Shown here: piece after piece, positions 2,764 through 17,310 of the stretch | Layout of the letters: each line of letters opens with the position of its first letter | Position numbering within the stretch: the stretch's first letter is position 1 | Source of the DNA: a virus | DNA: 20,483 nt | IMG/VR virus record: IMGVR_UViG_3300047551_003342 | Location: 1 to 20,483 of that record | Reading direction: 5' to 3' (one strand) | The notes under the pieces: generated by a model | Seen by the model: only the letters and a program-made list of their open reading frames with translations | What the model was told of the DNA's origin: nothing | Databases searched by the model: none | Made by a program: the position numbers and the translations under genes

Positions 2764-3783
2764 ATGCCATTTATAAAAAGTATTAGAAAAAGAGTTGATA
2801 GAGAAAATAATCTAGCTCAATATGTTGAAGTAGTTGGCGGCGATGTTGTTTATACAGCAGGAGGCTATAAAATACATATGTTCACTACAGTAGGGCAACA
2901 CAACTTACAACTCAAAGTCAAAGACAATTTAAAACACGCACCTGACACTGTCAAGAATTATCTTATCAGTGGATCTAATTTAAATACCGAATTTTTAGCC
3001 ATTGGTGGCGGTGGTGGGGGTGGTGCCCGTCATAGTGGTGGCGGTGGCGCTGGCGGCCTTGTAGAAAGCACAGCTGGTGCTATTTCAGGAAATGTATCTA
3101 TCTCAGTAGGTGGCGGTGGAAATGGCGGAGTCAATGAAGGATTTGGACAAAATGGGCAAAACACTACTTTCAGTACTGTGACTGCTATTGGTGGTGGTGG
3201 TGGATCAACATGGGACCCTGCCTTTGGACCTGGAACAGGTTCTACAGGTGGTTCGGGCGGTGGTGGCAGTCAAAACGGAGGTGGTGGTGGTCCAGCAAAT
3301 CAACCTTCACCGAATCCATTAGGTGGTGTAGGTTATGGGTTTAGGGGAGGAAACAGTATTCATAGCCCCCCAACAGTTCATGTATGGGCAGGTGGTGGTG
3401 GCGGCGCAGGTGGTGCTGGTGCAGACGGCCCAGCATATATCCCTCAGTCTCAGTCACCACCTGGCGGCCCTGGGCGCCAAAGCTCAATAACTGGTACCAA
3501 CTATCATTGGGCTGGTGGTGGAGGTGGTGGAACCTGGAACGGGAACACCGGCGGCCAAGGCGGTAACGGTGGCGGTGGCGGTGGCACAGGTGGTCCAGCA
3601 GGAACAGGTGGTCCAGGACTTAATGTTGGACAAAATGGCCAAAATGCTGGCCCACAGGCTCAAGGTACAATAGGAGGACAGGGAGGAAACAACACCGGTG
3701 GCGGCGGCGGTGGAGCCAATCAAGTTCCGAGCACAGGTGGTAGAGGAGGTCCGGGTATCGTAGTGGTTAGATATCTAACATAA
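2764..3783 (+). CDS. Glycine-rich tail-fibre adhesin-like protein
   Basis: The 339-residue protein starts at ATG 2764 behind AGGAGCAAAAG. Residues 1-80 form a normal, charged N-terminal domain (MPFIKSIRKRVDRENN...). From about residue 81 to 330 it is dominated by Gly runs of four to seven, separated by short Asn/Gln/Ser/Thr/Pro segments, and it ends in a beta strand, GIVVVRYLT. Glycine-rich motifs presenting variable loops are known in T-even gp38-type adhesins and in other phage receptor-binding proteins, so a distal adhesin role is plausible; this is inference from composition and position. The bases of this region are visibly more GC-rich than the neighbours because of GGN codons. Reverse-strand ORFs across it are composition artefacts. 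Confidence 0.75.
   Translation: MPFIKSIRKRVDRENNLAQYVEVVGGDVVYTAGGYKIHMFTTVGQHNLQLKVKDNLKHAPDTVKNYLISGSNLNTEFLAIGGGGGGGARHSGGGGAGGLVESTAGAISGNVSISVGGGGNGGVNEGFGQNGQNTTFSTVTAIGGGGGSTWDPAFGPGTGSTGGSGGGGSQNGGGGGPANQPSPNPLGGVGYGFRGGNSIHSPPTVHVWAGGGGGAGGAGADGPAYIPQSQSPPGGPGRQSSITGTNYHWAGGGGGGTWNGNTGGQGGNGGGGGGTGGPAGTGGPGLNVGQNGQNAGPQAQGTIGGQGGNNTGGGGGGANQVPSTGGRGGPGIVVVRYLT
3001..3730 (+). repeat. Glycine-codon low-complexity tract within the adhesin gene
   Basis: The DNA is an imperfect GGT/GGC/GGA triplet tract in several blocks (for example around 3003-3055, 3190-3212, 3264-3295, 3391-3420, 3511-3530, 3568-3590, 3695-3718). Blocks are separated by non-repetitive loops. It encodes the polyglycine segments of the adhesin-like protein. 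Such tracts are prone to slippage and recombination, which would vary loop spacing. Confidence 0.7.
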
Positions 3784-3786
3784 TTT

Positions 3787-4356
3787 ATGGGTAAAGTTTT
3801 ACTAAAAAGTTTTTACCATATTTCGAAGTTCAAATACCACGAAGACCTTAAAGAAGAACTAACTAGAATACTTGAGGAAGCAAGCAGTGAAGAACTAAAT
3901 GCTCCTCAAGCAGAAGTCTATATTTCTAGATGTGATTGGCAAAAAGCTAAAGATTTTAATAGACCATGGGTATCTTTTTTAAGAAAAAAATTGTTTGAAC
4001 ATATGTTAGAGATCTATGAAGATCTCGGATACGATGGATTCACTCTTCATGAAATATGGTTTCAGCAATATTTTACTAATGCTATGCACGGTTGGCACAC
4101 ACATAGTGGTAATTTTACCAATGTTTATTATGTTGATTTGCCTAATAACTCATCAAAAACATGCATCTTATGTCCTTTTGACCAAAAAAGTGTTATTGAA
4201 CTTGATGTAAAAGAAGGTGATATTGTAGTTTTTCCTAGTTTTGTTATTCACCAAGGTCCTAAAAATCTAAGTCAATATAAAAAAACTATTATATCATACA
4301 ACACAAATGTTACATACTCAGATGCAATTTATGCTAATCATGTAGGAATAAAATAA
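3787..4356 (+). CDS. 2OG-Fe(II) oxygenase-like protein (2OG-FeII_Oxy_5-like)
   Basis: The 189-residue protein has a jelly-roll-type oxygenase signature in its second half: HGWHTHSGNFTNVYYVDLP at 101-119, then GDIVVFPSFVIHQGP at 144-158 and KKTIISYNTN at 165-174. Candidate iron ligands are H104 and H106 (an HxH arrangement, as I recall for the 2OG-FeII_Oxy_5 family, rather than HxD) and H155; K165 or K166 may bind 2-oxoglutarate. The family hydroxylates protein or small-molecule substrates; this substrate is unknown. It starts three bases after the adhesin gene with no clear ribosome site, and its stop overlaps the next start (TAATG). It is on the fibre strand, opposite to the large tailoring operon. 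Confidence 0.7.
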   Translation: MGKVLLKSFYHISKFKYHEDLKEELTRILEEASSEELNAPQAEVYISRCDWQKAKDFNRPWVSFLRKKLFEHMLEIYEDLGYDGFTLHEIWFQQYFTNAMHGWHTHSGNFTNVYYVDLPNNSSKTCILCPFDQKSVIELDVKEGDIVVFPSFVIHQGPKNLSQYKKTIISYNTNVTYSDAIYANHVGIK

Positions 4357-4739
4357 TGCCAATATTTAAATCGAACAAGAATATATTTGTTGATAATGGA
4401 GAGTACTTTGAATCAAAATGGATGGCCCAAGATACTATTTATTGGCCTCCTACTAAACCCTGGAGCTATGAAAGAGAATTAAACATAGATGACATAGACA
4501 TTTGGGAAGTCATCTATGAAGGGAACTTTGGAATTTATGCTGCATATTCCCCAGAAGCAGAATTTTACATGATTTTTCCGTTTTATTGGATGGCTAGTAA
4601 CGGGTTTAAGATAGAAACCTTTTATGGAAAAGATGCGTCAATTAGAACATGGAAAAGGGCCAAAGAATTAAACATAGACCTTTCTGTTATAGAGTATTGG
4701 TTAGATTCAGACGAATATGAAAAATATATGAAGGCTTAA
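4356..4739 (+). CDS. Trp-rich conserved protein of unknown function, copy A
   Basis: The 127-residue protein starts at the ATG of a TAATG overlap with the oxygenase gene. It carries seven Trp residues (22, 30, 36, 50, 78, 99, 115) and is acidic and aromatic, without signal peptide or membrane segment. Residues 44-75 contain IDIWEVIYEG, FGIYAAY and EAEFYMIF, and residues ~85-110 contain IETFYGKDA...RAKELNIDL. The same pattern recurs in the protein at 14404-14736, so the two are paralogues. I do not recognise a function. Its stop overlaps the convergent stop of the tailoring operon by three bases, so it forms the left edge of the cassette. Confidence 0.65.
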   Translation: MPIFKSNKNIFVDNGEYFESKWMAQDTIYWPPTKPWSYERELNIDDIDIWEVIYEGNFGIYAAYSPEAEFYMIFPFYWMASNGFKIETFYGKDASIRTWKRAKELNIDLSVIEYWLDSDEYEKYMKA

Positions 4740-5326
4740 ATTTCGGGAGATAAGGTAGTTAGATTGAAAACAGCAGTAAGTCTTCCCTCTTTACTTTGAT
4801 TCTTTAGTACTTCGTGATTTAGCCAACCTGGCCATATTAATACAAGACCTTCTTCTGGAGCAATATCGTACCATTGCCAATTAGCTTGATTAGATTCTAT
4901 TACAGGTAAATTGACAACTTTGTTATGAAATCTAGGGTCATGGAATCTTATCTTTGATGATCCTTCAGGCACCCGCAAATATACTATACCAGATAGTGTA
5001 GTATTGGGGTGTTCGTGAGCTGCATGAAAATCACCTTCAAACATTTCACTAAAAAATACTTCACTATATAAATTGATTTGTTTGTAACCTAGCGATCCTA
5101 AATATTTTTTACCAATTTCTTTGGTGTAATTACTAAAAAACCCTAATTCTGACAATAGCATGTGATCTTTACTATAAGTGGTTTTATATCCCCATGTATT
5201 AGTATTGTTTTCAGGTACGGCAATTATTTTTTCAGCAATAGGTAACAACCTTTTAACTAGATCTTTATCAACAAATCCGCCTATGACTGTGGGAAAAAGG
5301 TTCAAGTGTGTCATTACATGTTTCAT
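4736..5326 (-). CDS. 2OG-Fe(II) oxygenase, 2OG-FeII_Oxy_5 family
   Basis: The 196-residue protein shows a clear family pattern: HAAHEHPNTTLSGIVYLRVP at 101-120, FHDPR at 128-132, then EEGLVLIWPGWLNHEV at 158-173 and GRLTAVFNL at 181-189. Likely iron ligands are H104 and H106 (HxH, usual for this family as I recall it) and H171; R182 is the likely 2-oxoglutarate salt-bridge residue. Members are frequent in marine T4-like phages, and their substrates are generally unknown. It is the last gene of the nine-gene minus-strand operon and starts in a TAATG overlap with the gene upstream. Family assignment is strong; function within the cassette is inferred only. Confidence 0.85.
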   Translation of the reverse strand: MKHVMTHLNLFPTVIGGFVDKDLVKRLLPIAEKIIAVPENNTNTWGYKTTYSKDHMLLSELGFFSNYTKEIGKKYLGSLGYKQINLYSEVFFSEMFEGDFHAAHEHPNTTLSGIVYLRVPEGSSKIRFHDPRFHNKVVNLPVIESNQANWQWYDIAPEEGLVLIWPGWLNHEVLKNQSKEGRLTAVFNLTTLSPEI

Positions 5327-5985
5327 TAAATGCGTCTCATTTCCGATATAGGATATTTTAAATTACATTCTCCAATGTTGTATTGAACTCCGTGAAAAAA
5401 ACTTATTAAAGTTAATCTATCTTCTGTAGTTGTACCCATATATGGTTGGGCAGCATGATACGATCTTGCATCAAATAAAACTAATCTATTGTATTTTGAT
5501 TTTATTATTATACTTTCGTCAAACTTACTATTGTTTAGATCTTTAGTGTCTTTTAATTTTTCTAGATCTTTATATTCCTTATAATTTTGAAAATAATTTA
5601 CTTTTTCAACTTGGTCGTTTAAAGCTTTTGAATATTGGTCTATAGGCGTAAATATGGAGGTTCCGCAGTTTTTATGTTTGCTCAAATAGACTATACAGGT
5701 GAATTCATTTTCATCTTGATGAACCCAACCATCGTGTTCTAAACCTTGAGGCACTTTTTGAAAATGAGTAGCAGTCCTCCAAAATAATTTTTTATAATCA
5801 TTCGGGTATAGCAGGGATAGAATCTTCTCGTTAACCCAAATAAAGAATTCATTATCTGTATGATGCAATGATGGAGTTCTTAATCCTGGGTAAAAGTTAG
5901 GTGCATATTCTTGCTTATTAGCATATTCCACAATACTATCTGGGTCGTCAAAAAAATTGTCAATACATAATAAAGGCCATAACAT
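5326..5985 (-). CDS. DUF6445-like 2OG-Fe(II) oxygenase-type protein
   Basis: The 219-residue protein has a complete oxygenase motif set: WVHQDENEFTCIVYLS at 87-102 (H89, D91), CGTSIFTP at 107-114, then NRLVLFDARSYHAAQP at 166-181 (H177) and DRLTLISFF at 189-197 (R190). This HxD...H...R layout and the WVHxD plus YHAA spacing resemble DUF6445, which I recall as often encoded near tryptophan-halogenase-like genes in bacteria; that should be verified by search. Residues 115-160 form a charged insertion. AGGA sits upstream of the ATG and the gene is three bases from the carbamoyltransferase. It probably acts on the same substrate as its operon neighbours. Confidence 0.75.
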   Translation of the reverse strand: MLWPLLCIDNFFDDPDSIVEYANKQEYAPNFYPGLRTPSLHHTDNEFFIWVNEKILSLLYPNDYKKLFWRTATHFQKVPQGLEHDGWVHQDENEFTCIVYLSKHKNCGTSIFTPIDQYSKALNDQVEKVNYFQNYKEYKDLEKLKDTKDLNNSKFDESIIIKSKYNRLVLFDARSYHAAQPYMGTTTEDRLTLISFFHGVQYNIGECNLKYPISEMRRI

Positions 5986-5988
5986 AAT

Positions 5989-7506
5989 TTATTTTCCTAA
6001 AATCTTATTTCCAATTACAAGATAATCTAAATCACTTTGCCAAAAAAACTCAATTACATCTTTTTGATGAGCTGCGATCGGCCTGCCATTTACATTAAGG
6101 CTGGTATTTAATAGGACAGGGCATCCAGTTAGGTTAAAAAAAGTGTTTATAAGATTATAAAATGACTTGTTATTTTTATCAACACACTGCACACGACATG
6201 TTCCATCTATATGAGTTATTTCTTTTAAAGAATCACTTTTAACTTTATATGTATAAAGCATAAAATTATCTTCAAATGGAATTTCAAAAAAATCTTGACT
6301 TAGTTTTGAAATCATACTTGCCCCAAAAGGTCTATAGTTTTCTCGTTTTTTAATCTTATTGATTCTACTTTTCATGCCATCGATTCTAGGATCAGCAAGT
6401 ATAGATCTATTTCCTAAAGCTCTCGGACCAATTTCACCATTTCCTTGATACCACGCTATTATTTTTCCTAAAGACAAAAGTCTAGCAGTTTCATGAATGG
6501 TCGTTTCACTAGGAAAATCAGCATCTTCATCAGATTGAACATAGGGGAAATTTTCAATTTCGAATTGAGGCAAATTATTAATTTTCCGCAAAAATTCTAT
6601 CCCTCCTAAACTTAATCCATCGTCTCCGCAATGAGGAGGTATAATTAAATTTGGAAATACAGTTTTTAACTTTGTATTCCATATGATATTTTGAGCTACC
6701 CCGCCTGTATATGAAATATAATCTGATATATTAGCATGTTCTTTAAAAAAATTACAAATCATTTCACCTATATAGAAATGAACTGTAGCAGCCCAATCTA
6801 AGGCAGAATGACAGGCTAAGCGTTCATCATTTTTAAACTTTATCCAATCATTAAAATTAAAAACATTTTCTTGATAATAAAAATTATGACTTGACAAATA
6901 ATTTTCTATAAAATTAAAGTTAATTTTTCCGTGAGATTGTAAAGACATGAGTTTTCCTGCTGTATCTAAACCATCTATAGGATTTGCAGCTTTTGTTCTA
7001 GGAATTCCTAAAAAGTCACCTAATTCAACTATTTTTCTACCAATTGAATCTGATTCATTTAGCGAACCTCTTTTCAACAATTTATCTTGTTTGATTATAG
7101 ACCATGAAGTTCCTGTATCAGCATCACCTGCTCCATCTATAACAAAATGAATAGAAGGTTCTTCTTTGTGTAACATCCAAGTGCTTAAGGAATGAGCATA
7201 ATGATGATCTAATCTGTAAACGACTGACTTTGAAGGAAATAAATCATATTCTATATATGGAAAAATATCTTGTGATGCATTTGGCAAATTATATTTGTGC
7301 GGTTCTAGTATAACAGCAATTTGATCAACAGTTCTATAATCTAAATTCCAAATTCTTTTAACTACATCTCTCCACTCCCATAAATTATTGAAAGCATGAT
7401 GTTTTATTTGAAATTCTCTTTCGGATCTGTAATATCTAACAATTTTGCCATCAAAATATGAAATATTACTGTCATGCCCGCAAAGTCTTAGGGATAATAA
7501 TTTCAT
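5989..7506 (-). CDS. Carbamoyltransferase, NodU/CmcH (HypF C-terminal/YrdC-like) family
   Basis: This 505-residue protein has the family landmarks in order: SLRLCGHDSNISYF at 5-18, DHHYAHSLSTW at 100-110, FVIDGAGDAD at 121-130, TGGVAQNIIWN at 267-277, DDGLSLGG at 295-302, WYQGNGEIGPRALGNRSIL at 352-370, ENYRPFGASM at 389-398 and LLNTSLNVNGRPI at 465-477. Family enzymes transfer a carbamoyl group from carbamoyl phosphate, via carbamoyl-adenylate, to a hydroxyl or amine of a sugar, antibiotic or other acceptor. It is slightly shorter than the usual 550-600 residues but no motif is missing. ATGA overlap with the upstream halogenase implies translational coupling. The acceptor is unknown; a hydroxyl made by one of the neighbouring oxygenases is an attractive guess. 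Confidence 0.9.
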   Translation of the reverse strand: MKLLSLRLCGHDSNISYFDGKIVRYYRSEREFQIKHHAFNNLWEWRDVVKRIWNLDYRTVDQIAVILEPHKYNLPNASQDIFPYIEYDLFPSKSVVYRLDHHYAHSLSTWMLHKEEPSIHFVIDGAGDADTGTSWSIIKQDKLLKRGSLNESDSIGRKIVELGDFLGIPRTKAANPIDGLDTAGKLMSLQSHGKINFNFIENYLSSHNFYYQENVFNFNDWIKFKNDERLACHSALDWAATVHFYIGEMICNFFKEHANISDYISYTGGVAQNIIWNTKLKTVFPNLIIPPHCGDDGLSLGGIEFLRKINNLPQFEIENFPYVQSDEDADFPSETTIHETARLLSLGKIIAWYQGNGEIGPRALGNRSILADPRIDGMKSRINKIKKRENYRPFGASMISKLSQDFFEIPFEDNFMLYTYKVKSDSLKEITHIDGTCRVQCVDKNNKSFYNLINTFFNLTGCPVLLNTSLNVNGRPIAAHQKDVIEFFWQSDLDYLVIGNKILGK

Positions 7507-8933
7507 TTTAAATATGTAATGTATGATTTATTTTGCAACAAATTACTGTTTTCTTTAATTAGAGATTGATTTGTTTTATCTTGCAATATTTCGTTCTGAG
7601 CTTGCTTCGGAGTTATTATATCTAAGCCTGCTGCTATATAATTCCATAAACATACTGCGGGTGATCCTATCATTCCACTAATAGATAAAAAACCTGGAAT
7701 TTGTGTTTTTGCCTTATCTAAATATGACTTAGCTCCCTTGCTTATAATTTCATTTCTTGCTATATTTTTCCAAAATTCAGTATCAGATCTTTTTCCTTGA
7801 TAATGAAATGAGATAAAATCCATGGTTAAATCATACAGACGAGATATCTGTTCATTGTATGAATCAATTTTTGTGTTGATAATAGTATAGTTTTTTTCCT
7901 CATGCAAATATTCTTTACAAAAGAATAGCAGCTGACAAATTGTGGTATGTATTGATGTAGCCTCTAATGGTTCAACAAAAGAAGCAGCAAGTCCTAAACT
8001 AAGAACATTATTCTTCCAACAAACCTCATTTCTACCAGATTCAAAATTAATAAATTTTATTGGGTCTATTTTTTTGCCAATATAAGCTTCAACTTCTGCC
8101 TGTGCTGCTTCGTAAGTTACAAAGTTTTTGTCGAATACATACCCACATCCTTTTCTTGTTTTTAATGGAATTTCCCACATCCAACCAGATGAAAGGGCAG
8201 TTGCTGATGTATAAGGCCTAGGAGTATCTCCATCGTAAGGTAATATAAATGGCATAGCAGTATTCACTGGTAAAATATCTTTATATGAGTGCCACTCTAC
8301 TGAAAGTTTTTTCATTAAAATTCTTGATAGACCTGAACAATCTATAAAAAAATCTGCTGTAATAGTATCTCCAGAATCTAAAGTTAAAAATGAAATGTGA
8401 TCATTTTCTACATCTATATTTGAAACTACAGCATCAATGTGCTTTACCCCATCTTGAGAACAAACACTTTTAAAAAATTTTCCTACCTTATGACCATCAA
8501 AATGTACTGCTGCCGAATATGTTGTTTCTTTTTGACTAAATAATTTTCCTAGTCCGCTGGCTAAATGCATTTTCTCCTTGCCATAATTAGCAAGTGCAGA
8601 TTTAAAATTGTCATCACTATAATTAGTCCAGGTGTCACTACAATCAATCGGAGCAAAATATCCAGAACTATCTCCTGTCCAATTTTGATGATATATTCCT
8701 AATTTAATTGTACCGTCTGTCTCATTTAGAAATTCTTCTATAGAAATTTTCCTATTAAAAAAATTTCCGTTTAACAAGTCAATCATAGACCCTGTAGAAC
8801 CTTCTCCTGCTCCAATTATACCTATTTTTGAAGATTCGATAACAGTAATATCGTGTTTATTTGGTTGTGAATTAGAAATAAAATAAGCAGCGATCCAGCC
8901 TGCTGTTCCTCCTCCTACTATAACTATTTTCAT
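7503..8933 (-). CDS. Flavin-dependent tryptophan halogenase-like protein (third in operon)
   Basis: The 476-residue protein contains the FAD fold GGGTAGW at 7-13, a Lys in GTIKLGIYHQNW (K77) at the place of the catalytic Lys of PrnA/RebH, the halogenase signature WMWEIP at 251-256, and FVEPLEATSIH at 319-329 with E324 matching the second active-site acid. The chloride-site segment reads EATS rather than the ESTG of PrnA. Enzymes of this type use reduced FAD, O2 and halide to make hypohalous acid and halogenate electron-rich aromatics or other substrates. The gene overlaps both neighbours by four bases (ATGA). Substrate and preferred halide cannot be read from the sequence. Confidence 0.88.
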   Translation of the reverse strand: MKIVIVGGGTAGWIAAYFISNSQPNKHDITVIESSKIGIIGAGEGSTGSMIDLLNGNFFNRKISIEEFLNETDGTIKLGIYHQNWTGDSSGYFAPIDCSDTWTNYSDDNFKSALANYGKEKMHLASGLGKLFSQKETTYSAAVHFDGHKVGKFFKSVCSQDGVKHIDAVVSNIDVENDHISFLTLDSGDTITADFFIDCSGLSRILMKKLSVEWHSYKDILPVNTAMPFILPYDGDTPRPYTSATALSSGWMWEIPLKTRKGCGYVFDKNFVTYEAAQAEVEAYIGKKIDPIKFINFESGRNEVCWKNNVLSLGLAASFVEPLEATSIHTTICQLLFFCKEYLHEEKNYTIINTKIDSYNEQISRLYDLTMDFISFHYQGKRSDTEFWKNIARNEIISKGAKSYLDKAKTQIPGFLSISGMIGSPAVCLWNYIAAGLDIITPKQAQNEILQDKTNQSLIKENSNLLQNKSYITYLK

Positions 8934-10456
8934 TCTTGTCTCAATATATTCAAAAATTCATCATGATCGTAACTTCTCATAGTTACACTTTGTAAGTTTG
9001 ACTTGAAACTCTGGACAAAATCATGACTAATGTTTTCCTTTATATTATATGTTAAAAATTCTTTTTCTATAATATGTCTAGGGAAATATTCAATTCCGCT
9101 GCCTACAAGTAGCCAGCTAAACATTGGAAAGTTAAAATACTTATAATTTTCTATCATGGAAGGAGTTCTATTCTTATATAAATCTAAGAGTTCATATAAT
9201 AAAGGTGACAAAATATTTTTCTCTCTAAATTCAATCCAAAATTTACTATCATTTCTATTAGTAAGGTAATGAAATTGTACTAGAGCTAGAATACTTGCAA
9301 TATTTTTACTAAATTCTATATTATATTCTTCTATAGCAGATTCATCCTGCATTACAATCCCAGATATATGCTCTGTTAATAAATTTAAACTGATAACTGT
9401 GATCCAAATTGATGTTGCCTCTAGTGGTTCTAAAAAACCTGAACTCAGCCCTATAGCTAGTACATTCTTATTCCAAACTTTTTCGAAATATCCCGAGTCG
9501 AAATTCAAACATCTAGACACCTCTGGGCGAAATCCTAAAAAACTTGTTACCTCGTCGTAGGCTTGATCTTGGTTAATATAATCACTGTCAAAAACATACC
9601 CGCAGCCAAATCGATTTCCTACAGGAGTTTTCCACATCCAACCATACTTTAATGCTATAGATTCTGTGTATGTAGGAGTGGTACTTTCATTTTGAATAAA
9701 AAAAGGAATTGCTTTTTTAACAGGCAAAAAATTACTGAAAGAATTAAATTTAGACTTATAGGTTTTTTCTACAAATAATCTATTGAATCCACTACAGTCA
9801 AATATAAAATCTACTTCATATTTTTCCCCGCTAGATAAAATTATTTTTTCTACACATCCTTTCTCATTCAACTCAGATGCTATTACTTTGCCATTTATAA
9901 ATTCTATACCCCTTTCTGTGCCTTTATACTTTAAAAAATCAGCTACTTTTTTAGCATCAAAATGTAGGCCAAAGGCTGCATAATTATCAGTTAAAGTTCC
10001 TTGTTCAAACGGAACTTTATTAGCATATGACAAGATACTGCTTAGATGTAGATCTTCAACAGAATTTGAATAATATAATCCATATAGTCCCAGCAAAGAT
10101 TTGTGATTCGGCAAGCTAATTTTTTTAGATGAATAATAATTTTTATTGCTACCTAAAAATAAATCATATTCATCTTTTACATTAAATCCATGATGATAGA
10201 TATCATTTTTACCAGACCAATTTGTAAATCTCGTGGCATTTTTTAAGGTAGCTCCGCAATTAATCACCATTTCTGATAAAGTTATATCTAAATAAGCAAG
10301 CATATCTAGCAAAGCTGGAGTTGTACTCTCACCTACTCCGATTATTCCAGTGGTTAAGTCTTCTATAACTTGTACAGTTGCTTTGGGAAAATATTTATTA
10401 CAGAACAATGCTGCAAGATTACCAGAAGTTCCTGCTCCTACAATTGTTATATTCAT
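8930..10456 (-). CDS. Diverged flavin-dependent halogenase-like protein (second in operon)
   Basis: This 508-residue protein follows the same plan: GAGTSGN at 7-13, VGEST at 41-45, ATLKNATRFTNW at 69-80 with K72 as the candidate catalytic Lys, WMWKTP at 273-278, and FLEPLEATSIW at 341-351 with E346. Two hallmarks deviate: the W that normally ends GxGxxGW is Asn, and the I of WxWxIP is Thr. It shares the EATSI segment and the GCGYVFD segment with the third halogenase, so these two are closer to each other than to the first. No strong ribosome site is visible; it starts three bases after the preceding stop. It may be an active halogenase with unusual specificity or a flavin enzyme doing different chemistry. 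Confidence 0.82.
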   Translation of the reverse strand: MNITIVGAGTSGNLAALFCNKYFPKATVQVIEDLTTGIIGVGESTTPALLDMLAYLDITLSEMVINCGATLKNATRFTNWSGKNDIYHHGFNVKDEYDLFLGSNKNYYSSKKISLPNHKSLLGLYGLYYSNSVEDLHLSSILSYANKVPFEQGTLTDNYAAFGLHFDAKKVADFLKYKGTERGIEFINGKVIASELNEKGCVEKIILSSGEKYEVDFIFDCSGFNRLFVEKTYKSKFNSFSNFLPVKKAIPFFIQNESTTPTYTESIALKYGWMWKTPVGNRFGCGYVFDSDYINQDQAYDEVTSFLGFRPEVSRCLNFDSGYFEKVWNKNVLAIGLSSGFLEPLEATSIWITVISLNLLTEHISGIVMQDESAIEEYNIEFSKNIASILALVQFHYLTNRNDSKFWIEFREKNILSPLLYELLDLYKNRTPSMIENYKYFNFPMFSWLLVGSGIEYFPRHIIEKEFLTYNIKENISHDFVQSFKSNLQSVTMRSYDHDEFLNILRQE

Positions 10457-10459
10457 AAT

Positions 10460-11056
10460 TTATATGACTGACTTTTTACCTAGAGTTTCTCTTTTGTCAA
10501 ATTTCCAACTGCTATATGGTCCATTTTGATCTACAAAATGAAAAAATCCTTGTAAATGCCAAGACTCATCACTTCCAGTATGTAATTTATCTCTATAATG
10601 TGGTAATTCACAGCCTTTATAAATTACTAAATCTCCAGGCTCTAATACAATACTATTTCCATCCATAACGATTGGCCATGAGTAGTTTGATGGAATATAT
10701 TCATAATTTATACACAGCGTTGCAGATATTTCACAAGATTCTCTGTCTGTATGTATTTCTAAATCATCACCATCATAATACATTCTATAATACGAGTATG
10801 TAGGATGTAGGCTATAACCTGTATTTTTTTCAATTATATAACGTAATTCAAGTAAAATAGTTTCCATTAAAGGATCCCCATATTTACTATAAGCATACAT
10901 GGCTTGAGGATCTCCAAAAAATTTTGAATTTTCTTCTTTCATTTGGTCGAAAAAAACATACTGCGTGATTATATCTAAAAATTTTTGGTCAAAAACTTTT
11001 GAAACTTTACAATATCCAGTATTTTTAAAAATATCTTTATTATTTAGAGATTCCAT
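10460..11056 (-). CDS. Putative 2OG-Fe(II) oxygenase
   Basis: The 198-residue protein has DLEIHTDRESCEISATLCIN at 98-117, giving H102 and D104 as an HxD pair, and EPGDLVIYKGCELPHYRD at 139-156, giving H153 as third ligand. The usual distal Arg or Lys is not obvious; R155 or a residue in WHLQGFFHFVDQNGPY (166-181) might serve. The closing NGPYSSWKFDKR recalls uncharacterised oxygenase-like proteins of marine T4-like phages. An AAGGAATTAAT ribosome site precedes the ATG. Operon position between a 2OG oxygenase and a halogenase suggests a role in the same tailoring path. Fold assignment is likely; activity is less certain than for its neighbours. Confidence 0.68.
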   Translation of the reverse strand: MESLNNKDIFKNTGYCKVSKVFDQKFLDIITQYVFFDQMKEENSKFFGDPQAMYAYSKYGDPLMETILLELRYIIEKNTGYSLHPTYSYYRMYYDGDDLEIHTDRESCEISATLCINYEYIPSNYSWPIVMDGNSIVLEPGDLVIYKGCELPHYRDKLHTGSDESWHLQGFFHFVDQNGPYSSWKFDKRETLGKKSVI

Positions 11057-11065
11057 ATTAATTCC

Positions 11066-11692
11066 TTATAGTTGCCTATCTTTAATCCATGTCACTAGAG
11101 CATACTTAATGCCAGATTTGATAGGATGTGCAATATGAGCATAGGCAAAATTACTTGGAAATAATATTAGCATACCTGGCTCAGGTTTAATTTTAATTTT
11201 ATGTGCGGTGAATTCTATTTCACCACCTTCATAATCATTATTTAAATAACATACTGCTGAAATAGCTCTTCCTATACCTGTGCCTCCATCATAATGCCTC
11301 TTGTACTGCTCATTATGATAGTATTTTAACATTGCGTAACCTTCATGATATAGCGTCTCATTAATGTGATATTTTTGAGCATATGGAATACTTGTAGCAT
11401 AAAGAAGCATGGCAAATTGATTATGAATATTTTGTAAGACAGGATTGTTTTCGTTCATTGCACCTTCAGTAACATTTATAATTTTATTTGTTCTATAAGT
11501 TTGATTCGATCCTTCTAATACAGTGCCTGCTTTGGTCCAGAAAACGTCACTATTGTTTTCTATCTCATTTTCTATCATTTGAATTGTTTTATCTGGATGC
11601 GGCCAGGCATTCTCAAAAATGTCTATACAACCTGCAACCGTAGTGCTTGGTTGAAGATTACCTGGAAATATCCCGTTTATTACATTTGCCAT
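11066..11692 (-). CDS. Prolyl-4-hydroxylase-type 2OG-Fe(II) oxygenase
   Basis: I start this gene at the ATG at 11692 (208 residues) because AAAGGA lies six bases upstream and the preceding stop is ten bases away. A longer frame to 11746 would need a TTG and would overlap the upstream gene by 44 bases. The second half has the P4H-type core: QYKRHYDGGTGIGRAISAVC at 129-148 (H133, D135), YLNNDYEGGEIEF at 149-161, EPGMLILFPS at 171-180 and AHIAHPIKSGIKYALVTW at 185-202, where H186 and K196 align with the metal His and the 2-oxoglutarate base. Known relatives hydroxylate proline or free amino acids and peptides. The substrate here is unknown. Confidence 0.82.
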   Translation of the reverse strand: MANVINGIFPGNLQPSTTVAGCIDIFENAWPHPDKTIQMIENEIENNSDVFWTKAGTVLEGSNQTYRTNKIINVTEGAMNENNPVLQNIHNQFAMLLYATSIPYAQKYHINETLYHEGYAMLKYYHNEQYKRHYDGGTGIGRAISAVCYLNNDYEGGEIEFTAHKIKIKPEPGMLILFPSNFAYAHIAHPIKSGIKYALVTWIKDRQL

Positions 11693-11702
11693 TTCATGTC
11701 CT

Positions 11703-12329
11703 TTATAATCTATACCCAATAAGCTGGGTAATTGTATATCTGCCAAAATTTTTATTTCTATTCAACTCATACATTTCAACTTCTTCAACTGCGTGTTCTA
11801 ATATTGAAGGAAATATAACAGTTCTGTTGTTTTGACATTTAATTTTTACCTCGTCCTCTATAACAAAATCACCGCCTTCAAATCTTTTAGGCTCTTGAAA
11901 AAACCAAGAACAAACTGTTACAGAAGCATCATCTGCATGAGATTTGTAGTAATCTGAGTCTTCATAATAACTTATAAGGGTTGAATCGGCTGTGCTCTTT
12001 AATATATGTCTAAAGTATATGTCTATATCTATTAATTTAGATACAAGATCCGCATTAAAAATTTTCCTATTCTCGTGCAAAATATCACTAAATTTTCTAT
12101 CTACATACATATCGTCTAAAAAAAGACCTTTATTTTTCTTTTTAAAAAAAACCTCTTTTGAATTAGGATCGATAATATTTGCACTTCCTGTTTTGTCAGG
12201 AGGATTAAGCTTATCTCTTTTAGAAATAAAATTTAGTTCTGCCCATATATTAGACATTGCCTGTTCATCGTAGTAATTATCAATAACTACTACTGGTAAC
12301 CTTTTCACTTGAAAATTTTGTATTTTCAT
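11703..12329 (-). CDS. 2OG-Fe(II) oxygenase
   Basis: The 208-residue protein has a textbook C-terminal oxygenase core: YYEDSDYYKSHADDASVTVC at 121-140 (H131, D133), RFEGGDFVIE at 149-158, NNRTVIFPSILEHAVEEV at 167-184 (H179) and GRYTITQLIGYR at 196-207 (R197). The N-terminal ~110 residues are a helical, charged region typical of P4H-like small oxygenases. It overlaps the first halogenase gene by four bases (ATGA), so translation is probably coupled, and no separate ribosome site is evident. It is the second gene of the operon. Hydroxylation or oxidative modification of the same acceptor as the halogenases is inferred from context only. Confidence 0.82.
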   Translation of the reverse strand: MKIQNFQVKRLPVVVIDNYYDEQAMSNIWAELNFISKRDKLNPPDKTGSANIIDPNSKEVFFKKKNKGLFLDDMYVDRKFSDILHENRKIFNADLVSKLIDIDIYFRHILKSTADSTLISYYEDSDYYKSHADDASVTVCSWFFQEPKRFEGGDFVIEDEVKIKCQNNRTVIFPSILEHAVEEVEMYELNRNKNFGRYTITQLIGYRL

Positions 12330-13894
12330 AATTTGTAGATATGTCTTTTTAAAAATTCGTAATGAGTAGGTAATTTATCTATCACCTGCAAAATTTCTTT
12401 CTTCTTTTCCAAATAAAAATTCCTAACACTTTGGATTTCATCATATGCTGAGGGATTTCTATAAACTGCTAACCTAGCTTGAGAATGAGAAATCGGAGTT
12501 AGCCCCATTCCAGTTAAGATAAAAGTTTCTCCTGCTGGGAACGATCTATCTAATTCGTTAGTTATATTAAGTCTAAGCATTGTTTCAGAAGCGTTTTTTC
12601 TAAATTCAGCATCTAAATTATAAATTTTAGGTGCATATTTTATTTCTCTAGTAACGTGTCTCCAATATTCAGTATCGTCCCGTTGGCTCATAGCATAGTG
12701 TAAAGATACAAATTGTTTAAATCCTTCTAATTCTTCTCTAGCTGCAAAATTCCAACCATCTATGTCGAATTGATTGTAATAACCATTTCTTTTAGATAAT
12801 GTTGCTTCTAGACGCATAATGTTTTCATGAGTAGTTAATAAGCCTGTTGATTCTAATGGTTCAATAAATCCTAGTGCTAGTCCTATAGAACAAACATTTT
12901 TAATCCATGGTTCTTTTTGAACTCCGTGACGAATATCTATATGCCTAAATTCTAACTGCTCTACATGACAACCTTGCTTTACTAGATGACTTTTGAATTC
13001 TTTTTCTGCATTTTCTTTGTCGGTAAATTTGCTACTATAAACATATCCTGTACCCTTCCGAGTAAAGGTAGGAATATTCCACACCCAACCATTTTCTATC
13101 GCGGTACAATTAGTTATTGGTTCTAGTTCCTTATCTATATTATTGTATGGAATAGTAGTAGCAATTGCTTTATCATTCATCAAAACATCGCCGAAGCTTA
13201 AAAATTCAGATTTCATTACTTTTTCTATAAGCAATTTTGAAAAACCTGATGCATCAATGTATAAATCAGCTGATAATAAAAGTCCTTCTTTAGTAGTTAA
13301 ATGAGATATTGATCCATCTATGTTTTGTCTTACATCGACTATTGTATCTTCTACATGACGAACTCCATAGGGCAATGCTATTTTATCTCTTAGAAAGATG
13401 CCAAACTTTTCAGCGTTCATATGATAGGCAGTGTCAAGATGAAAGTTAAATCCCGGAATTTCACCCTCTTTATTAAATGTCATCTTGCTTTTATCTGCCA
13501 TTAGCACTTGATGTACAAACATTTCAGCAAAATCAGTTACTGGTAAAGTGTATTTGTTTAAAGCCTGATGCCAATACCAATCCATAATTCCGTACTTGGT
13601 ACCATCTAAATTGAATGCACCAAACGGATAATGAAAATATGAGCCTTTTACCCTAAAATCTGTAAATTTAATAGTAGTTTTATAAGTAGCATCACAAGCA
13701 GGCATCCAATCTTCATCTTTAAGCTCTAAGCTATCTAAATATTTGTTAATTTGGCCTAAAGTTGATTCGCCCACACCGATAGTGCCTATTTTTTTCGACT
13801 CTATTAGGGTAATATCTAAAAATTTTAACTTTTTAGCAAGATAGGCAGCAGTCATCCATCCTGCACTGCCCCCGCCGACGATTAATATTTTCAT
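12326..13894 (-). CDS. Flavin-dependent tryptophan halogenase-like protein (first in operon)
   Basis: The 522-residue protein is the most canonical of the three halogenases: GGGSAGW at 7-13, VGEST at 41-45, CDATYKTTIKFTDF at 67-80 with K72 as the catalytic-Lys counterpart, WVWNIP at 270-275 (WxWxIP) and FIEPLESTGL at 343-352 with E348 and the ESTG chloride-site segment seen in PrnA/RebH. The C-terminal half holds the usual FVSLHYAMSQRDDTEYW-type helix. Related enzymes are known from marine cyanophages, including VirX1, a viral halogenase reported to iodinate many substrates. It leads the nine-gene operon, about 20 bases behind a late-type promoter on the minus strand. No flavin reductase partner is encoded nearby. 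Confidence 0.92.
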   Translation of the reverse strand: MKILIVGGGSAGWMTAAYLAKKLKFLDITLIESKKIGTIGVGESTLGQINKYLDSLELKDEDWMPACDATYKTTIKFTDFRVKGSYFHYPFGAFNLDGTKYGIMDWYWHQALNKYTLPVTDFAEMFVHQVLMADKSKMTFNKEGEIPGFNFHLDTAYHMNAEKFGIFLRDKIALPYGVRHVEDTIVDVRQNIDGSISHLTTKEGLLLSADLYIDASGFSKLLIEKVMKSEFLSFGDVLMNDKAIATTIPYNNIDKELEPITNCTAIENGWVWNIPTFTRKGTGYVYSSKFTDKENAEKEFKSHLVKQGCHVEQLEFRHIDIRHGVQKEPWIKNVCSIGLALGFIEPLESTGLLTTHENIMRLEATLSKRNGYYNQFDIDGWNFAAREELEGFKQFVSLHYAMSQRDDTEYWRHVTREIKYAPKIYNLDAEFRKNASETMLRLNITNELDRSFPAGETFILTGMGLTPISHSQARLAVYRNPSAYDEIQSVRNFYLEKKKEILQVIDKLPTHYEFLKRHIYKL

Positions 13895-13937: not shown

Positions 13938-14399
13938 ATGGACAACAAAATTTTTGTAAATCTAAACTTTAATGAAAAAACTATCACATTCGATCATGCA
14001 CACTTAACAGCAAAACAGAGTAATCTTTCTTTCAAAATTATTAAAGGTGAAAACCCTGAAAATTTAAAATTTGGTTTTAAGTTTTACGAGGGAGCAGTTT
14101 TAAAATCTGAAGAAGAATACTATTATGGTAATGCAGTAGTTGCCCCAACTTGGTCAATTGAACCTCCTATAGACATATCTGTTTTAGTGAAACATCAAAT
14201 AACCGTATGGATGGAAATTAATGGTGAGCGTATAGAAAATTCTTATACGGTAGAAAACATTTTACCACTTCAGCCATTTCCTTCTTGGTCTTGGAATTTA
14301 CTAACTCAAACTTGGGAGGCTCCGATTCCTCATCCTAATAATAATCAACCATTAGGATGGGACGAATCAAGAAAAAGTTGGGTTTTAAGAACTCTTTAA
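13938..14399 (+). CDS. Trp-rich virion/fibre-type protein
   Basis: The 153-residue protein starts at ATG 13938 with GGGG at 13927-13930 as likely ribosome site. Residues 1-110 form a beta-rich domain (FVNLNFNEKTITF, LSFKIIKG, HQITVWMEING). The C-terminal ~40 residues hold PFPSWSWNLLTQTWEAPIPH at 113-132 and LGWDESRKSWV at 139-149. Trp occurs at 72, 91, 117, 119, 126, 141 and 148. The PxPSWxWN...WEAP...W pattern is one I associate with structural proteins of T4-like cyanophages. It is divergent from the first halogenase gene, with face-to-face promoters in the 43-base gap. Being Trp-rich and adjacent, it is a conceivable halogenation substrate, but nothing in the sequence proves this. Confidence 0.68.
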   Translation: MDNKIFVNLNFNEKTITFDHAHLTAKQSNLSFKIIKGENPENLKFGFKFYEGAVLKSEEEYYYGNAVVAPTWSIEPPIDISVLVKHQITVWMEINGERIENSYTVENILPLQPFPSWSWNLLTQTWEAPIPHPNNNQPLGWDESRKSWVLRTL

Positions 14400-14403
14400 T
14401 AGT

Positions 14404-14736
14404 GTGTTAGTCTGTTTAAAAACTACAGAAGAAATTTTAGATAATGTGTGGGAATCACCTCAAAAATTCTTTATAAATTATCCTAATTTTAATTATTCAA
14501 ACATTGAAAAATTAGATATCGATAATGTTGTTTTATGGGAAGAAATTTTTTATATACCAGGCGGAATAGGAATTTATTCTGCATGGAAACCATATGCTGA
14601 ATTTTATATATTAACGCACAATTTGTTTTTAAAAAAAGAATTTATTGAAAAATTTTATAGTCTCCAAACACTTTTAGATCGTTGTAAAGAATTAGACGTT
14701 CAACTTCAAACTGACCTAATTTGGACACCTAACTAA
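14404..14736 (+). CDS. Trp-rich conserved protein of unknown function, copy B
   Basis: The 110-residue protein most likely starts at GTG 14404, four bases after the preceding stop; an in-frame stop at 14386-14388 prevents a longer start, and no strong ribosome site is visible. Residues 39-71 (IDNVVLWEEIFYI...GIGIYSAW...AEFYILT) and 81-101 (IEKFYSLQTLLDRCKELDVQL) align with residues 44-75 and 86-109 of the 127-residue protein at 4356-4739, so the two are paralogues in the same orientation at either side of the tailoring operon. The N-terminus is diverged between copies. Function is unknown. Its 3' end overlaps the convergent small gene by eight bases. Confidence 0.6.
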   Translation: MLVCLKTTEEILDNVWESPQKFFINYPNFNYSNIEKLDIDNVVLWEEIFYIPGGIGIYSAWKPYAEFYILTHNLFLKKEFIEKFYSLQTLLDRCKELDVQLQTDLIWTPN

Positions 14737-14980: not shown

Positions 14981-15245
14981 TGTCCTTCTTCCATTGATTT
15001 AATTTTTTATCTATAAGTCTTCGAAGATTTAATAAGTCTTCTTTTGTTTCTAGTGAGATAGGACTAATTCTATTATTATTTGATAAATTTCCGTGCTGCA
15101 TATCAAACAATTTTACTTTCTGTTTTAATTGTCCTAATAAATTTAACAATTCTTTTTTAGTTGTTTCATCATCTATCTGTTGTATATTTTGTTGGAAAGT
15201 ATTGTACTCATTAATAAAATTTGGGCTTTTCTCTAAACTAAACAT
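14970..15245 (-). CDS. Small coiled-coil protein of unknown function
   Basis: The 91-residue protein starts at ATG 15245 after a strong GGAGG ribosome site and in a TAATG overlap with the Nudix gene. It is charged and helical throughout, with heptad-like segments at residues ~15-50 (EYNTFQQNIQQIDDE, KKELLNLLGQLKQKVKLFD) and 65-90, so it is probably a short coiled coil. The pattern 'MFSL...NFINEYNTFQQNI' and 'LLGQLKQKVKLFDMQH' resembles small conserved proteins next to neck genes in T4-like cyanophages, from memory. Function is unknown. Confidence 0.62.
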   Translation of the reverse strand: MFSLEKSPNFINEYNTFQQNIQQIDDETTKKELLNLLGQLKQKVKLFDMQHGNLSNNNRISPISLETKEDLLNLRRLIDKKLNQWKKDNAR

Positions 15246-15685
15246 TATAAAACCTCCATTATATCTATGATAGTCTGTATCTTTGTTTGTAAAATTTTAT
15301 TTCTCAAACTTAATTCTAATCCTTTGTGTAAAGGCTTTGGCAAACTGTTTAAATGAAACCAGCCCCACCCAGAGTGTTCTTGACTAATTATAGGCAAAAA
15401 TTCTTTATCTACTATACAAAAATAAGTATGGAAATTAAATAATGAATCATTACTAACAAATCTTTCCAGAGGTAATGTTTTTCGTATCACTGGTTTTAAA
15501 CCCAATTCTTCTTCAATTTCCCTTAGCAGTCCTTGCCATGCTGTTTCACCACATTGGTTAGTTCCGCCAACTAGCCCCCAACGACCTGCATGTTTTCCTG
15601 TGTTTTTTTGTAACAACAAAAACCGTTGCGACTCTTTAGCACAAACCAAAGCGCCACTACAATCTATTAAAGTGCTAGTCTCCAT
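15245..15685 (-). CDS. Nudix hydrolase
   Basis: The 146-residue protein has a perfect Nudix box at 41-63: G41, E47, then R55-E56-I57-x-E59-E60-x-G62-L63, fitting GX5EX7REUXEEXGU. Upstream RWGLVGG and downstream FHTYFCIV fit the family's beta strands. These enzymes hydrolyse nucleoside diphosphates linked to another moiety, such as oxidised dNTPs, ADP-ribose, dinucleotide polyphosphates or RNA caps; the substrate here is not evident. The ATG overlaps the end of gp15 by 19 bases and has only a weak ribosome site. Finding it inside a structural transcript suggests late expression. It is intact and family-typical in length. Confidence 0.9.
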   Translation of the reverse strand: METSTLIDCSGALVCAKESQRFLLLQKNTGKHAGRWGLVGGTNQCGETAWQGLLREIEEELGLKPVIRKTLPLERFVSNDSLFNFHTYFCIVDKEFLPIISQEHSGWGWFHLNSLPKPLHKGLELSLRNKILQTKIQTIIDIMEVL

Positions 15686-17310
15686 GAATTCTTTTTATAA
15701 TCACCCTCAAATGATTTTACCCAAGTAACACCGTTCCATTTGTACTGTGTGCCTGTATAGTAATTAGTCTGATAAATGATTATGTCTGTTTTTTCACTGC
15801 TTGAAAATAGTGTTATCCAATTAGTTCCATTCCACATCACAATATCGTTAGTGTAGGCTGTAGGGTCACTACCATCTGTGTTTTTCCAAGCATCAGGACC
15901 GTCGTCATTAAGATTTAGTGAATAGGTCACTACACTTCCAATTGGAATCATTGCAGTTGTTACAATAACATAAATTCCAGCGTTATTCAAAGCAGTATCT
16001 TGTGCAACTTCTACACCATTTACAAAGACGTTTGCTTCATAAACATCGTCATAATTCACACCTGTAGAAACCTTTTTGGTTTTCACTGTGGTAGTAAATG
16101 TGTCACGTACTCCCCCGCCAACATTATCTACTAACAAATACCGTATGCCAGTAGTAATAGTTTGATCTGTATTTTCCCCGTTTGGTCTTTTTGGATTAAA
16201 AGTTGTAGGATCAACTACTGCATCAAAGGTCCCCTTACCAGTAGCACTGCTATATCCCGTATCAATTTCGTTTATCAAACCGTTATTGTCTATATAGTTA
16301 TTACTTGGGAAGCTATCAGCGTCCCATTCTGCAATCATAATGGTGTCATCTAGAGGATGATAACTAAGCGTACCTATTACTTCTGATCCATCGTCCTGAG
16401 ATAAAAATATCTTACTTAAACCTTCTGTAAATGTTCCAGGTGTTTGATCTATAGCTTGCTTCCAAGATAAATCATTACTTGCTCCGGTTTGATTACTGTG
16501 TAAATATATTCTATTTTCTACAACTGTGATATCAAATGCACCAGCTGTAATTGTTTGAGTATAAAGCAGATTACTTGGAACCCTTTCGTCACTGGCAGGA
16601 TCGTTACCCCAACCGTCTAGATAATTACCATCACCACTACTAATAGCTCCATAGACACTGGCGATTATTTTTGTCACAACACCTAGCTTCTTGACCTTTA
16701 CAGGTGGGCTTAGATATATCGGAGTTTGAAGGGTAATAGTAGCTATGTCAATGGCACTATTCACACCTACTGGCACTGTTCTAGAGCTAAACAAAACGTC
16801 GGTAAGCTCTACTACTGTTAGGCTTGTCCAATCTATATAGTTATCTGTGGTTTGAATCTCAAGGCTAGGATTAAACAAGACTAAGATCTGTTCAAGGATT
16901 TGAAGCTTTTGATCCGTGTTGCTCGACCAAATATCTACCTTTATTTTGAGATTAAAAGGTGTAGGCATCAATCTTTCAACAGTATAATTAGCACCTTGCG
17001 TACTTGTATATTCACCGGTGTTGTTATCTACGCCACGCTCTCTAATATGTAATTTACTGACAAAATATGGATCGCTTAATCTTGTACGATCTAATGACAG
17101 CTCATTTATATACACTGCAATCTTAGGACAACTTGGCAAAGTATTTTCACTGTTTTGATTCACAATGTTAGCCACCTGACGATCAGCATCGCCATACATA
17201 ACTGGAATTCTAACCAGGGCACCGTCACCGTATTTGACTACAAAGTTACTGAGTAGTCTAATTACTTGAATAAGATAGCGTCTTATCTGTCCGTCATAAA
17301 AGTACTGCAT
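15667..17310 (-). CDS. gp15: Tail sheath stabiliser and completion protein, T4 gp15-like
   Basis: The 547-residue protein begins QYFYDGQIRRYLIQVIRLLS (2-21), matching the YFYNSSFRRY start of T4 gp15, and carries LMPTPFNLKIKVDIW with TDQKLQILEQILVLFNPS (114-149), matching the T4 gp15 SPIKMIYELSIFT...QIVEQILPYFQP region. It is twice the length of T4 gp15 (272 residues as I recall). Residues 1-222 carry the core and the remaining ~325 residues are an extension ending in Trp-rich WNGTNWITLF and YKWNGVTWVKSFEG segments. gp15 forms the ring that caps the tail and joins it to the neck. The ATG overlaps the gp14 stop (TAATG), so the two are coupled. Confidence 0.85.
   Translation of the reverse strand: MQYFYDGQIRRYLIQVIRLLSNFVVKYGDGALVRIPVMYGDADRQVANIVNQNSENTLPSCPKIAVYINELSLDRTRLSDPYFVSKLHIRERGVDNNTGEYTSTQGANYTVERLMPTPFNLKIKVDIWSSNTDQKLQILEQILVLFNPSLEIQTTDNYIDWTSLTVVELTDVLFSSRTVPVGVNSAIDIATITLQTPIYLSPPVKVKKLGVVTKIIASVYGAISSGDGNYLDGWGNDPASDERVPSNLLYTQTITAGAFDITVVENRIYLHSNQTGASNDLSWKQAIDQTPGTFTEGLSKIFLSQDDGSEVIGTLSYHPLDDTIMIAEWDADSFPSNNYIDNNGLINEIDTGYSSATGKGTFDAVVDPTTFNPKRPNGENTDQTITTGIRYLLVDNVGGGVRDTFTTTVKTKKVSTGVNYDDVYEANVFVNGVEVAQDTALNNAGIYVIVTTAMIPIGSVVTYSLNLNDDGPDAWKNTDGSDPTAYTNDIVMWNGTNWITLFSSSEKTDIIIYQTNYYTGTQYKWNGVTWVKSFEGDYKKNSWRLAL

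Follow-up and report, generated by a model that had tools for sequence, protein, structure and literature searches.

Gene content of the locus

The viral record IMGVR_UViG_3300047551_003342 was analysed over its entire length of 20,483 bases, referred to below as the window. At 4736-13894 its minus strand carries nine open reading frames (ORFs) in a nearly gapless block, which encode three flavin-dependent halogenases (FDHs) of family PF04820, five 2-oxoglutarate/Fe(II) (2OG) oxygenase-like proteins and one NodU/CmcH-type carbamoyltransferase. An earlier reading of this DNA, made from the sequence only, had described nine genes with gaps of ten bases or fewer and four ATGA or TAATG overlaps. 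The ORFs and their spacings (-1, +3, -4, -4, +3, +9, -44 and -4 bases) agree with this description once the in-frame ATG at 11692, rather than the TTG at 11746, is taken as the start of gene 7; the overlap of 44 bases then disappears, leaving a gap of 10 bases, and the overlaps are three ATGA and one TAATG. The enzyme classes assigned in that reading are borne out by Pfam and PHROG profile searches, by motifs and by the predicted fold of gene 6. No scaffold synthase, the lack of which had been stated before, and no precursor peptide was recognised among the window ORFs. Beyond the cassette as first delimited lie a sixth 2OG gene (3787-4356), a glycine-rich gene (2764-3783) and a gene for a small Trp-rich protein (13938-14399). 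Promoter-like matches in the window were at background level (74, against 68 expected).

The first gene of the operon, FDH-A (12326-13894; PF04820, E 9e-113), is of the VirX1 type (6qgm, E 4e-135). FDH-B (8930-10456; PF04820, E 2e-96) is nearest to PrnA of HTVC008M (38% identity), and FDH-C (7503-8933; PF04820, E 4e-91) belongs to a short FDH clade, grouping with the FDH of contigs L044 and L035. In all three proteins the PF04820 profile covers most of the length, and the GxGxxG, active-site Lys and EPLE(S/A)T motifs are intact; halogenase activity is predicted. WxWxIP is present in FDH-A and FDH-C. FDH-B deviates here, with WMWKTP where WxWxIP is expected, and retains GxGxxG, the Lys and the Glu. 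The match of FDH-A to VirX1 spans 99% of its length at 455 bits, the next solved structure scoring 266 bits, which places FDH-A nearer to VirX1 than to the bacterial tryptophan halogenases. It is 57% identical to the FDH of L011 and clusters with those of L010 and L011 (100*), both contigs that carry a gene of the glycine-rich fibre family termed GLA here. FDH-B and FDH-C fall outside the VirX1 clade, in a separate clade of 18 members, and score higher with bacterial FDHs. FDH-B has few relatives overall, and a pattern scan found none. Additional FDH copies, in which the profile match is interrupted midway (open frames of 379-409 aa), occur in L010 (G001:39340-40365), L045 (G021:6696-7745) and L064 (G031:7899-8996); these are probably decaying or divergent duplicates.

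Among the oxygenase-like genes, 2OG Pfam matches above the cut-off were obtained for the last gene of the operon (4736-5326; PF13759, E 8e-23), for gene 7 (mechanical ORF 11066-11746, 11066-11692 with the likely ATG start; PF13640, E 5e-14; HYD...H) and for its upstream neighbour (11703-12329; PF13640, E 2e-7; HAD...H). The gene at 5326-5985 encodes a DUF6445 protein (PF20043, E 1e-15) with a sub-threshold match to PF13640 and the motif HQD...H. The HxD...H iron ligands are thus present in 5326-5985, 11066-11746 and 11703-12329, and also in gene 6 (10460-11056). In 4736-5326 and in the sixth gene, 3787-4356, HxH...H stands at the iron-ligand position, though both proteins match PF13759.

Gene 6 has no Pfam match. 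It is assigned here through phrog_2954 (E 9e-44), through an HxD...H.R motif conserved across an alignment of 23 family members, and through its AlphaFold model (pLDDT 92), for which the best Foldseek matches are the Pseudomonas prolyl 4-hydroxylase (P4H) structures 4j25 and 4iw3, including the complex with EF-Tu, followed by PHD2 and PBCV-1 vCPH. The modelled fold is a double-stranded beta-helix like that of protein prolyl hydroxylases. Given this prediction, the PHROG name 'ferrochelatase' looks wrong for gene 6. The names 'ferrochelatase', 'minor coat protein' and 'DNA endonuclease V' (phrog_2954, phrog_1644 and phrog_274) all sit on 2OG-oxygenase-like proteins, including in annotations of cyanophage records.

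The carbamoyltransferase (5989-7506; PF16861, E 5e-56; PF02543, E 4e-12; phrog_1601, E 3e-142) has both the N-terminal Kae1-like domain (PF02543) and the C-terminal domain (PF16861), and would, as a member of this family, transfer a carbamoyl group to a hydroxyl in a reaction that uses carbamoyl phosphate and ATP. Its C-terminal half matches GdmN and TobZ, and its nearest solved relatives, which include decarbamoylnovobiocin carbamoyltransferase, are small-molecule enzymes. This would accord with an alternative in which the encoded enzymes act on sugars or lipopolysaccharide, either at the host surface or on a fibre-borne glycan, for example to block superinfection or to aid release. In S-CAM9 and Sf-FS3, in addition, the carbamoyltransferase lies several kb from glycosyltransferases. 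However, no glycosyltransferase was recognised in the window, FDHs act on aromatic rings rather than on sugars, and the link between FDHs and fibre genes described below would be left unexplained. Modification of glycans is therefore considered very unlikely. Only two relatives of the carbamoyltransferase were found in the scan of viral contigs. In HTVC008M, L077, L084 and L091 it does neighbour 2OG genes or sit among them, the L084 copy being apparently split. In HTVC008M, a pelagiphage, genes annotated as the curli genes CsgF, CsgG and CsgB (L092 7562-9000) are found about 5 kb from the carbamoyltransferase and 2OG genes. The carbamoyltransferase is the outlier of the nine-gene set, and may or may not be part of a common pathway.

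The cassette is set within tail genes. On the plus strand at one side are an S74-peptidase-type tail fibre protein (1305-2312; PF13884, E 6e-12; tail fibre PHROGs) and a glycine-rich tail protein of the PF21722 type (2764-3783; E 5e-12; 32% Gly), a candidate adhesin and candidate substrate. The sixth 2OG gene (3787-4356; PF13759, E 4e-8; phrog_81, E 6e-26) follows 3 bases downstream on the same strand. On the other side the small Trp-rich protein, termed 'w' (13938-14399, plus strand; phrog_7759, E 2e-5), is a candidate fibre chaperone and possibly a substrate; 43 bases separate the start of its gene from that of FDH-A. Beyond it a NUDIX hydrolase (15245-15685, minus strand; PF00293, E 5e-16) marks the gp15-side border, as the same neighbour does in L010, L012, L024, L040 and L045. 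Homologues of gp15 and gp13 and a virion protein at the gp14 position also lie on this side, so that the tail-fibre/neck setting proposed earlier is upheld. The gp15 homologue (15667-17310), extended to 547 aa, is nearest to those of the jumbo T4-like phages Phosso, Atu_ph07 and PA5oct, not Kyanoviridae. This affinity suggests that the window derives from a marine jumbo phage. The gp15 and NUDIX border recurs beside a comparable array and glycine-rich genes, for example in L045 and L012, and in the 354-kb contig L223 an FDH module lies near gp15.

Two small plus-strand genes are paralogous (BLASTP 34%, E 5e-11): one of 127 aa (4356-4739), convergent with the cassette and overlapping its end by 4 bases, and one of 110 aa (14404-14736). 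Together with 'w' they bracket the minus-strand block, as if it had been inserted or duplicated within a fibre operon. The GC content of the cassette is about 30-33%, compared with about 36-46% for most flanking tail genes.

Linkage of halogenases and oxygenases to glycine-rich tail genes

In a placement test on 12 long contigs, the mean distance from an FDH to the nearest 2OG gene was 2.2 genes, against 7.9 expected (P ~2e-4), and the distance from an FDH to the nearest glycine-rich gene was likewise shorter than expected (P ~8e-4). Oxygenases lie within six genes of the FDH in 58 of the 80 contigs that carry relatives of FDH-A. The sequence-only reading had named separate occurrence in relatives as a sign of chance accumulation. 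For the FDH and 2OG genes linkage beyond chance is what was found; it is not clear for the carbamoyltransferase or FDH-C, and the relatives of FDH-B are too few.

The same reading had set the combination of enzymes apart from the single halogenases known in cyanophages, but novelty of the combination as such is not supported. Two adjacent FDHs in syn9, S-RIM44 and P-RSM6, and one in S-CREM1, are followed by 2OG-type arrays next to tail fibres, and the contigs behind L036 and L037 carry four FDHs with 10-12 oxygenases. The FDH and 2OG layout itself is therefore not new, being already present in the genomes of cyanophage isolates. What seems to be new is the partner: the genetic tie of these enzymes to glycine-rich tail proteins appears unreported, and a literature search for a link of halogenases or oxygenases to glycine-rich or tail-fibre proteins found none.

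This tie was followed by scanning viral contigs with a profile of GLA (alignment A3), so that the anchor was the fibre and not the FDH; a locus counted as informative when its downstream sequence reached 3 kb or more. Past GLA, every informative locus (64/64) encodes a small protein and an FDH, and 60 of them oxygenases as well, at adhesin identities down to ~41%. In 11 further GLA loci without an FDH the sequence ends soon past the glycine-rich gene (longest remainder 1.9 kb). Among 50,697 phage records GLA was found in 20, every one of which has a VirX1-type FDH; the small protein was found in the same 20, with one weak match elsewhere. S-RIM44 records that lack the VirX1-type FDH also lack GLA. 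Four records have a VirX1-type FDH and no GLA (Sf-CH11/Sf-CH1a and S-B64/S-H35), and in Sf-CH11 the FDH is still part of a 2OG cassette that comes behind a long structural gene. Genetically, the VirX1-type FDH, the small protein and the GLA fibre are strongly coupled. A tail-fibre fold is predicted for the FDH-linked GLA, the model of which (pLDDT 83) best matches the fibre of cyanophage Pam3 (7ypx, E 2e-7, TM ~0.54-0.57).

A swap-prone border between tail-fibre and neck genes might gather FDH, 2OG and carbamoyltransferase genes that travel with the fibres and do not act on them. The low GC content of the cassette relative to most flanking tail genes, the paralogous genes at its two ends, the shortened FDH copies in some arrays and the variable presence and place of the carbamoyltransferase are all in keeping with such a hot spot. 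Random accumulation would not be expected, however, to give the order glycine-rich gene, small protein, FDH in each of the 64 informative loci. The window ORFs also keep their catalytic motifs, and we regard the hot spot as an improbable explanation of the cassette.

A scan for PF21722-type tail genes, planned as a negative control, showed oxygenase arrays there too, and the model was widened for this reason. Oxygenases follow in 21 of the 24 informative PF21722-type loci and an FDH in 3, so a place in a tail locus does not by itself account for the linkage of FDHs. Arrays of oxygenases seem to accompany glycine-rich tail proteins in general, with the FDH a frequent extra that is near-obligate with GLA. 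In L239-L268, a small Trp-rich protein (phrog_7759) and several oxygenases regularly come after the PF21722 tail genes, even where an FDH is lacking. Consecutive glycine-rich tail genes interleaved with small proteins occur in L086 and L068, and in L086 an FDH on the opposite strand lies between them.

In relatives 'w' is the gene after the glycine-rich gene. Alignment A1 of this protein has seven invariant columns, four of which are Trp. As an obvious substrate for a tryptophan halogenase it was set aside, since it is frequent at glycine-rich loci that lack an FDH too, so that its Trp residues are not specific to FDHs, and it is kept as a mere possibility. The FDH-linked small protein of the isolates, 't', is a candidate substrate or chaperone. 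For both small proteins a chaperone role is a candidate one based on position and size; no fibre chaperone was found among the PDB matches of their sequence profiles, and the small-protein alignment A4 contained no stretch suited to a scan.

A proposed role in modification of the tail adhesin

We think it somewhat probable that the nine genes provide the enzymes of a system by which the phage modifies its own glycine-rich tail adhesin post-translationally. The 2OG oxygenases would hydroxylate side chains of glycine-rich fibre proteins or of the co-encoded small protein. FDHs, supplied with reduced flavin by the host and with halide from seawater, would add halogen to aromatic or His side chains at the surface, and in the phage of the window some of the hydroxyls so formed may be capped by the carbamoyltransferase, if the reactions run in that order. 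The receptor-binding tip would thereby become chemically more varied or stiffer, which may be the benefit to the phage. Host metabolites, glycans, proteins and phage virion proteins had all been listed earlier as potential acceptors. A virion protein is now favoured, because the FDHs are tied to glycine-rich tail-fibre genes, and the other acceptors are less favoured. The fibre-like model of GLA, the likeness of gene 6 to protein hydroxylases, the open active site of VirX1 and the existence of FDHs that act on peptides and proteins also speak for a protein substrate. Were the substrate the phage's own fibre, no scaffold synthase would be needed.

For the window itself the argument is one step longer. 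A glycine-rich tail gene, the small protein and six 2OG-like genes do lie within ~10 kb of an FDH. No GLA-type gene is adjacent; GLA is the fibre type of L010 and L011, whose FDHs cluster with FDH-A. The coupling of the cassette to an adhesin is therefore inferred from relatives, since its own glycine-rich gene is of the PF21722 subtype and on the opposite strand, and this protein would have to be GLA-like in its role.

Several observations weigh against modification of the adhesin. The PF21722 subtype present in the window, encoded on the strand opposite to the cassette, usually occurs without an FDH. A glycine-rich gene was detected within six genes of the FDH in only 38 of the 80 loci anchored on FDH-A relatives, many of them on short contigs. 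The GLA and FDH counts are not independent, many contigs being related and the GLA profile having been built from FDH loci, and joint transfer within a hot spot for tail fibres could have produced the linkage. On the supporting side, His, Tyr and Trp make up 4.6, 4.5 and 1.1% of FDH-linked GLA cores, against 0.4, 2.3 and 0.3% of PF21722 cores without FDH, an enrichment that is suggestive only, as these may be traits of families that differ otherwise and the sequences are not independent. In PF21722 proteins near an FDH, His is higher and Tyr slightly so, and Trp is not (P 0.59), which speaks against a Trp-specific signal. The carbamoyltransferase of isolates is mostly found elsewhere, beside head genes, psbA or replication genes, and lies within FDH loci in 4/80 cases. 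In S-H35 the VirX1-type FDH is isolated among replication and recombination genes. Relatives of FDH-C in L271-L283 occur as an FDH alone, with no oxygenase or glycine-rich neighbours detected; presumably these contigs are from freshwater. As FDH-C has relatives without tail neighbours and relatives of FDH-B are scarce, the three FDHs may act on different substrates. The sequence-only reading saw the logic of a pathway in the nine genes; one fixed pathway is not supported, given the usual location of the carbamoyltransferase and the solitary relatives of FDH-C.

FDHs away from tail genes, as in S-H35 and L271-L283, would be expected if these were auxiliary metabolic genes, the enzymes acting on free host metabolites such as tryptophan, indoles, phenolics or pigments to give halogenated or hydroxylated small molecules during infection. 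This accords with the literature on cyanophage prnA and 2OG genes, which treats them as separate metabolic genes and has listed them as such, with an unclear purpose, since at least 2010, and with the halogenation of many free aromatics by VirX1 in vitro (PMC8407142). It is hard to square with the near-invariant tie of the FDH to the fibre family GLA, which was not found in phages without a VirX1-type FDH. Moreover, no scaffold synthase, precursor peptide or transporter was recognised in the window, and the 5-12 divergent oxygenases beside one fibre operon would seem to exceed the needs of any single known pathway. We consider a metabolic role unlikely.

More tentatively, and with a credence a little short of even, marine phages may hold a dedicated fibre chemistry, in which hydroxylase arrays, often with VirX1-type halogenases and here with a carbamoyltransferase, modify glycine-rich adhesins. 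Halogenated, hydroxylated and possibly carbamoylated residues could then vary or toughen receptor binding in ways that the genetic code does not offer, and VirX1 would have the neighbouring fibre protein or small protein as its natural substrate. Such modification, if confirmed, would be a new means for a phage to shape its host-binding surface and, to our knowledge, the first role assigned to a viral halogenase. The near-perfect tie to one tail-fibre family offers a concrete and cheap test, by virion mass spectrometry on cultured phages.

Comparison with known systems

For the FDHs of the window, 5uao, which we take to be MibH, was a low-ranked match and not the closest one, and no leader or precursor peptide is seen in the window. 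FDHs that act on ribosomally made peptides or proteins do exist; MibH, SrpI and ChlH are examples, from pathways for ribosomally synthesized and post-translationally modified peptides (PMC10858898, PMC12518702). For protein hydroxylation, the viral collagen prolyl hydroxylase (vCPH) of PBCV-1 is a precedent for a virus-encoded enzyme, and the model of gene 6 shares its fold, as it does that of the bacterial P4H acting on EF-Tu. These proteins are only ~8-19% identical to gene 6, however, and have no FDH or carbamoyltransferase counterpart.

On the side of the substrate, the closest known system is the Pam3 fibre gp24 with its chaperone gp25 (7YPX/7YFW). The glycine-rich domain of this fibre is assigned to receptor recognition, and the chaperone is of 162 aa (PMC9608196). 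The GLA model matches the fibre, and gp25 has about the length of the small proteins encoded after glycine-rich genes. The matched model is that of GLA and not that of the PF21722 protein of the window, however, and the small proteins have no chaperone match in the PDB.

The arrays of syn9, S-RIM44, P-RSM6 and S-CREM1 contain the same enzyme classes as the window, densely packed and directly beside tail-fibre genes. They differ in having one or two FDHs and no adjacent carbamoyltransferase, and in lying on the strand of the GLA fibre, whereas the array of the window is inverted relative to its fibre operon.

The best solved relative of FDH-A is VirX1, the well-characterised FDH of cyanophage Syn10 (PDB 6QGM). 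Its active site is large and accessible, and no biosynthetic cluster or natural substrate has been assigned to it (PMC8407142). FDH-A belongs to its family by sequence, with the catalytic Lys and Glu conserved. The Syn10 genome has the VirX1-type FDH at 114.0-115.6 kb, close to the small protein at 117.1-117.6 kb and the GLA gene at 118.5-119.3 kb; the window differs in having three FDHs, a carbamoyltransferase and the other glycine-rich subtype.

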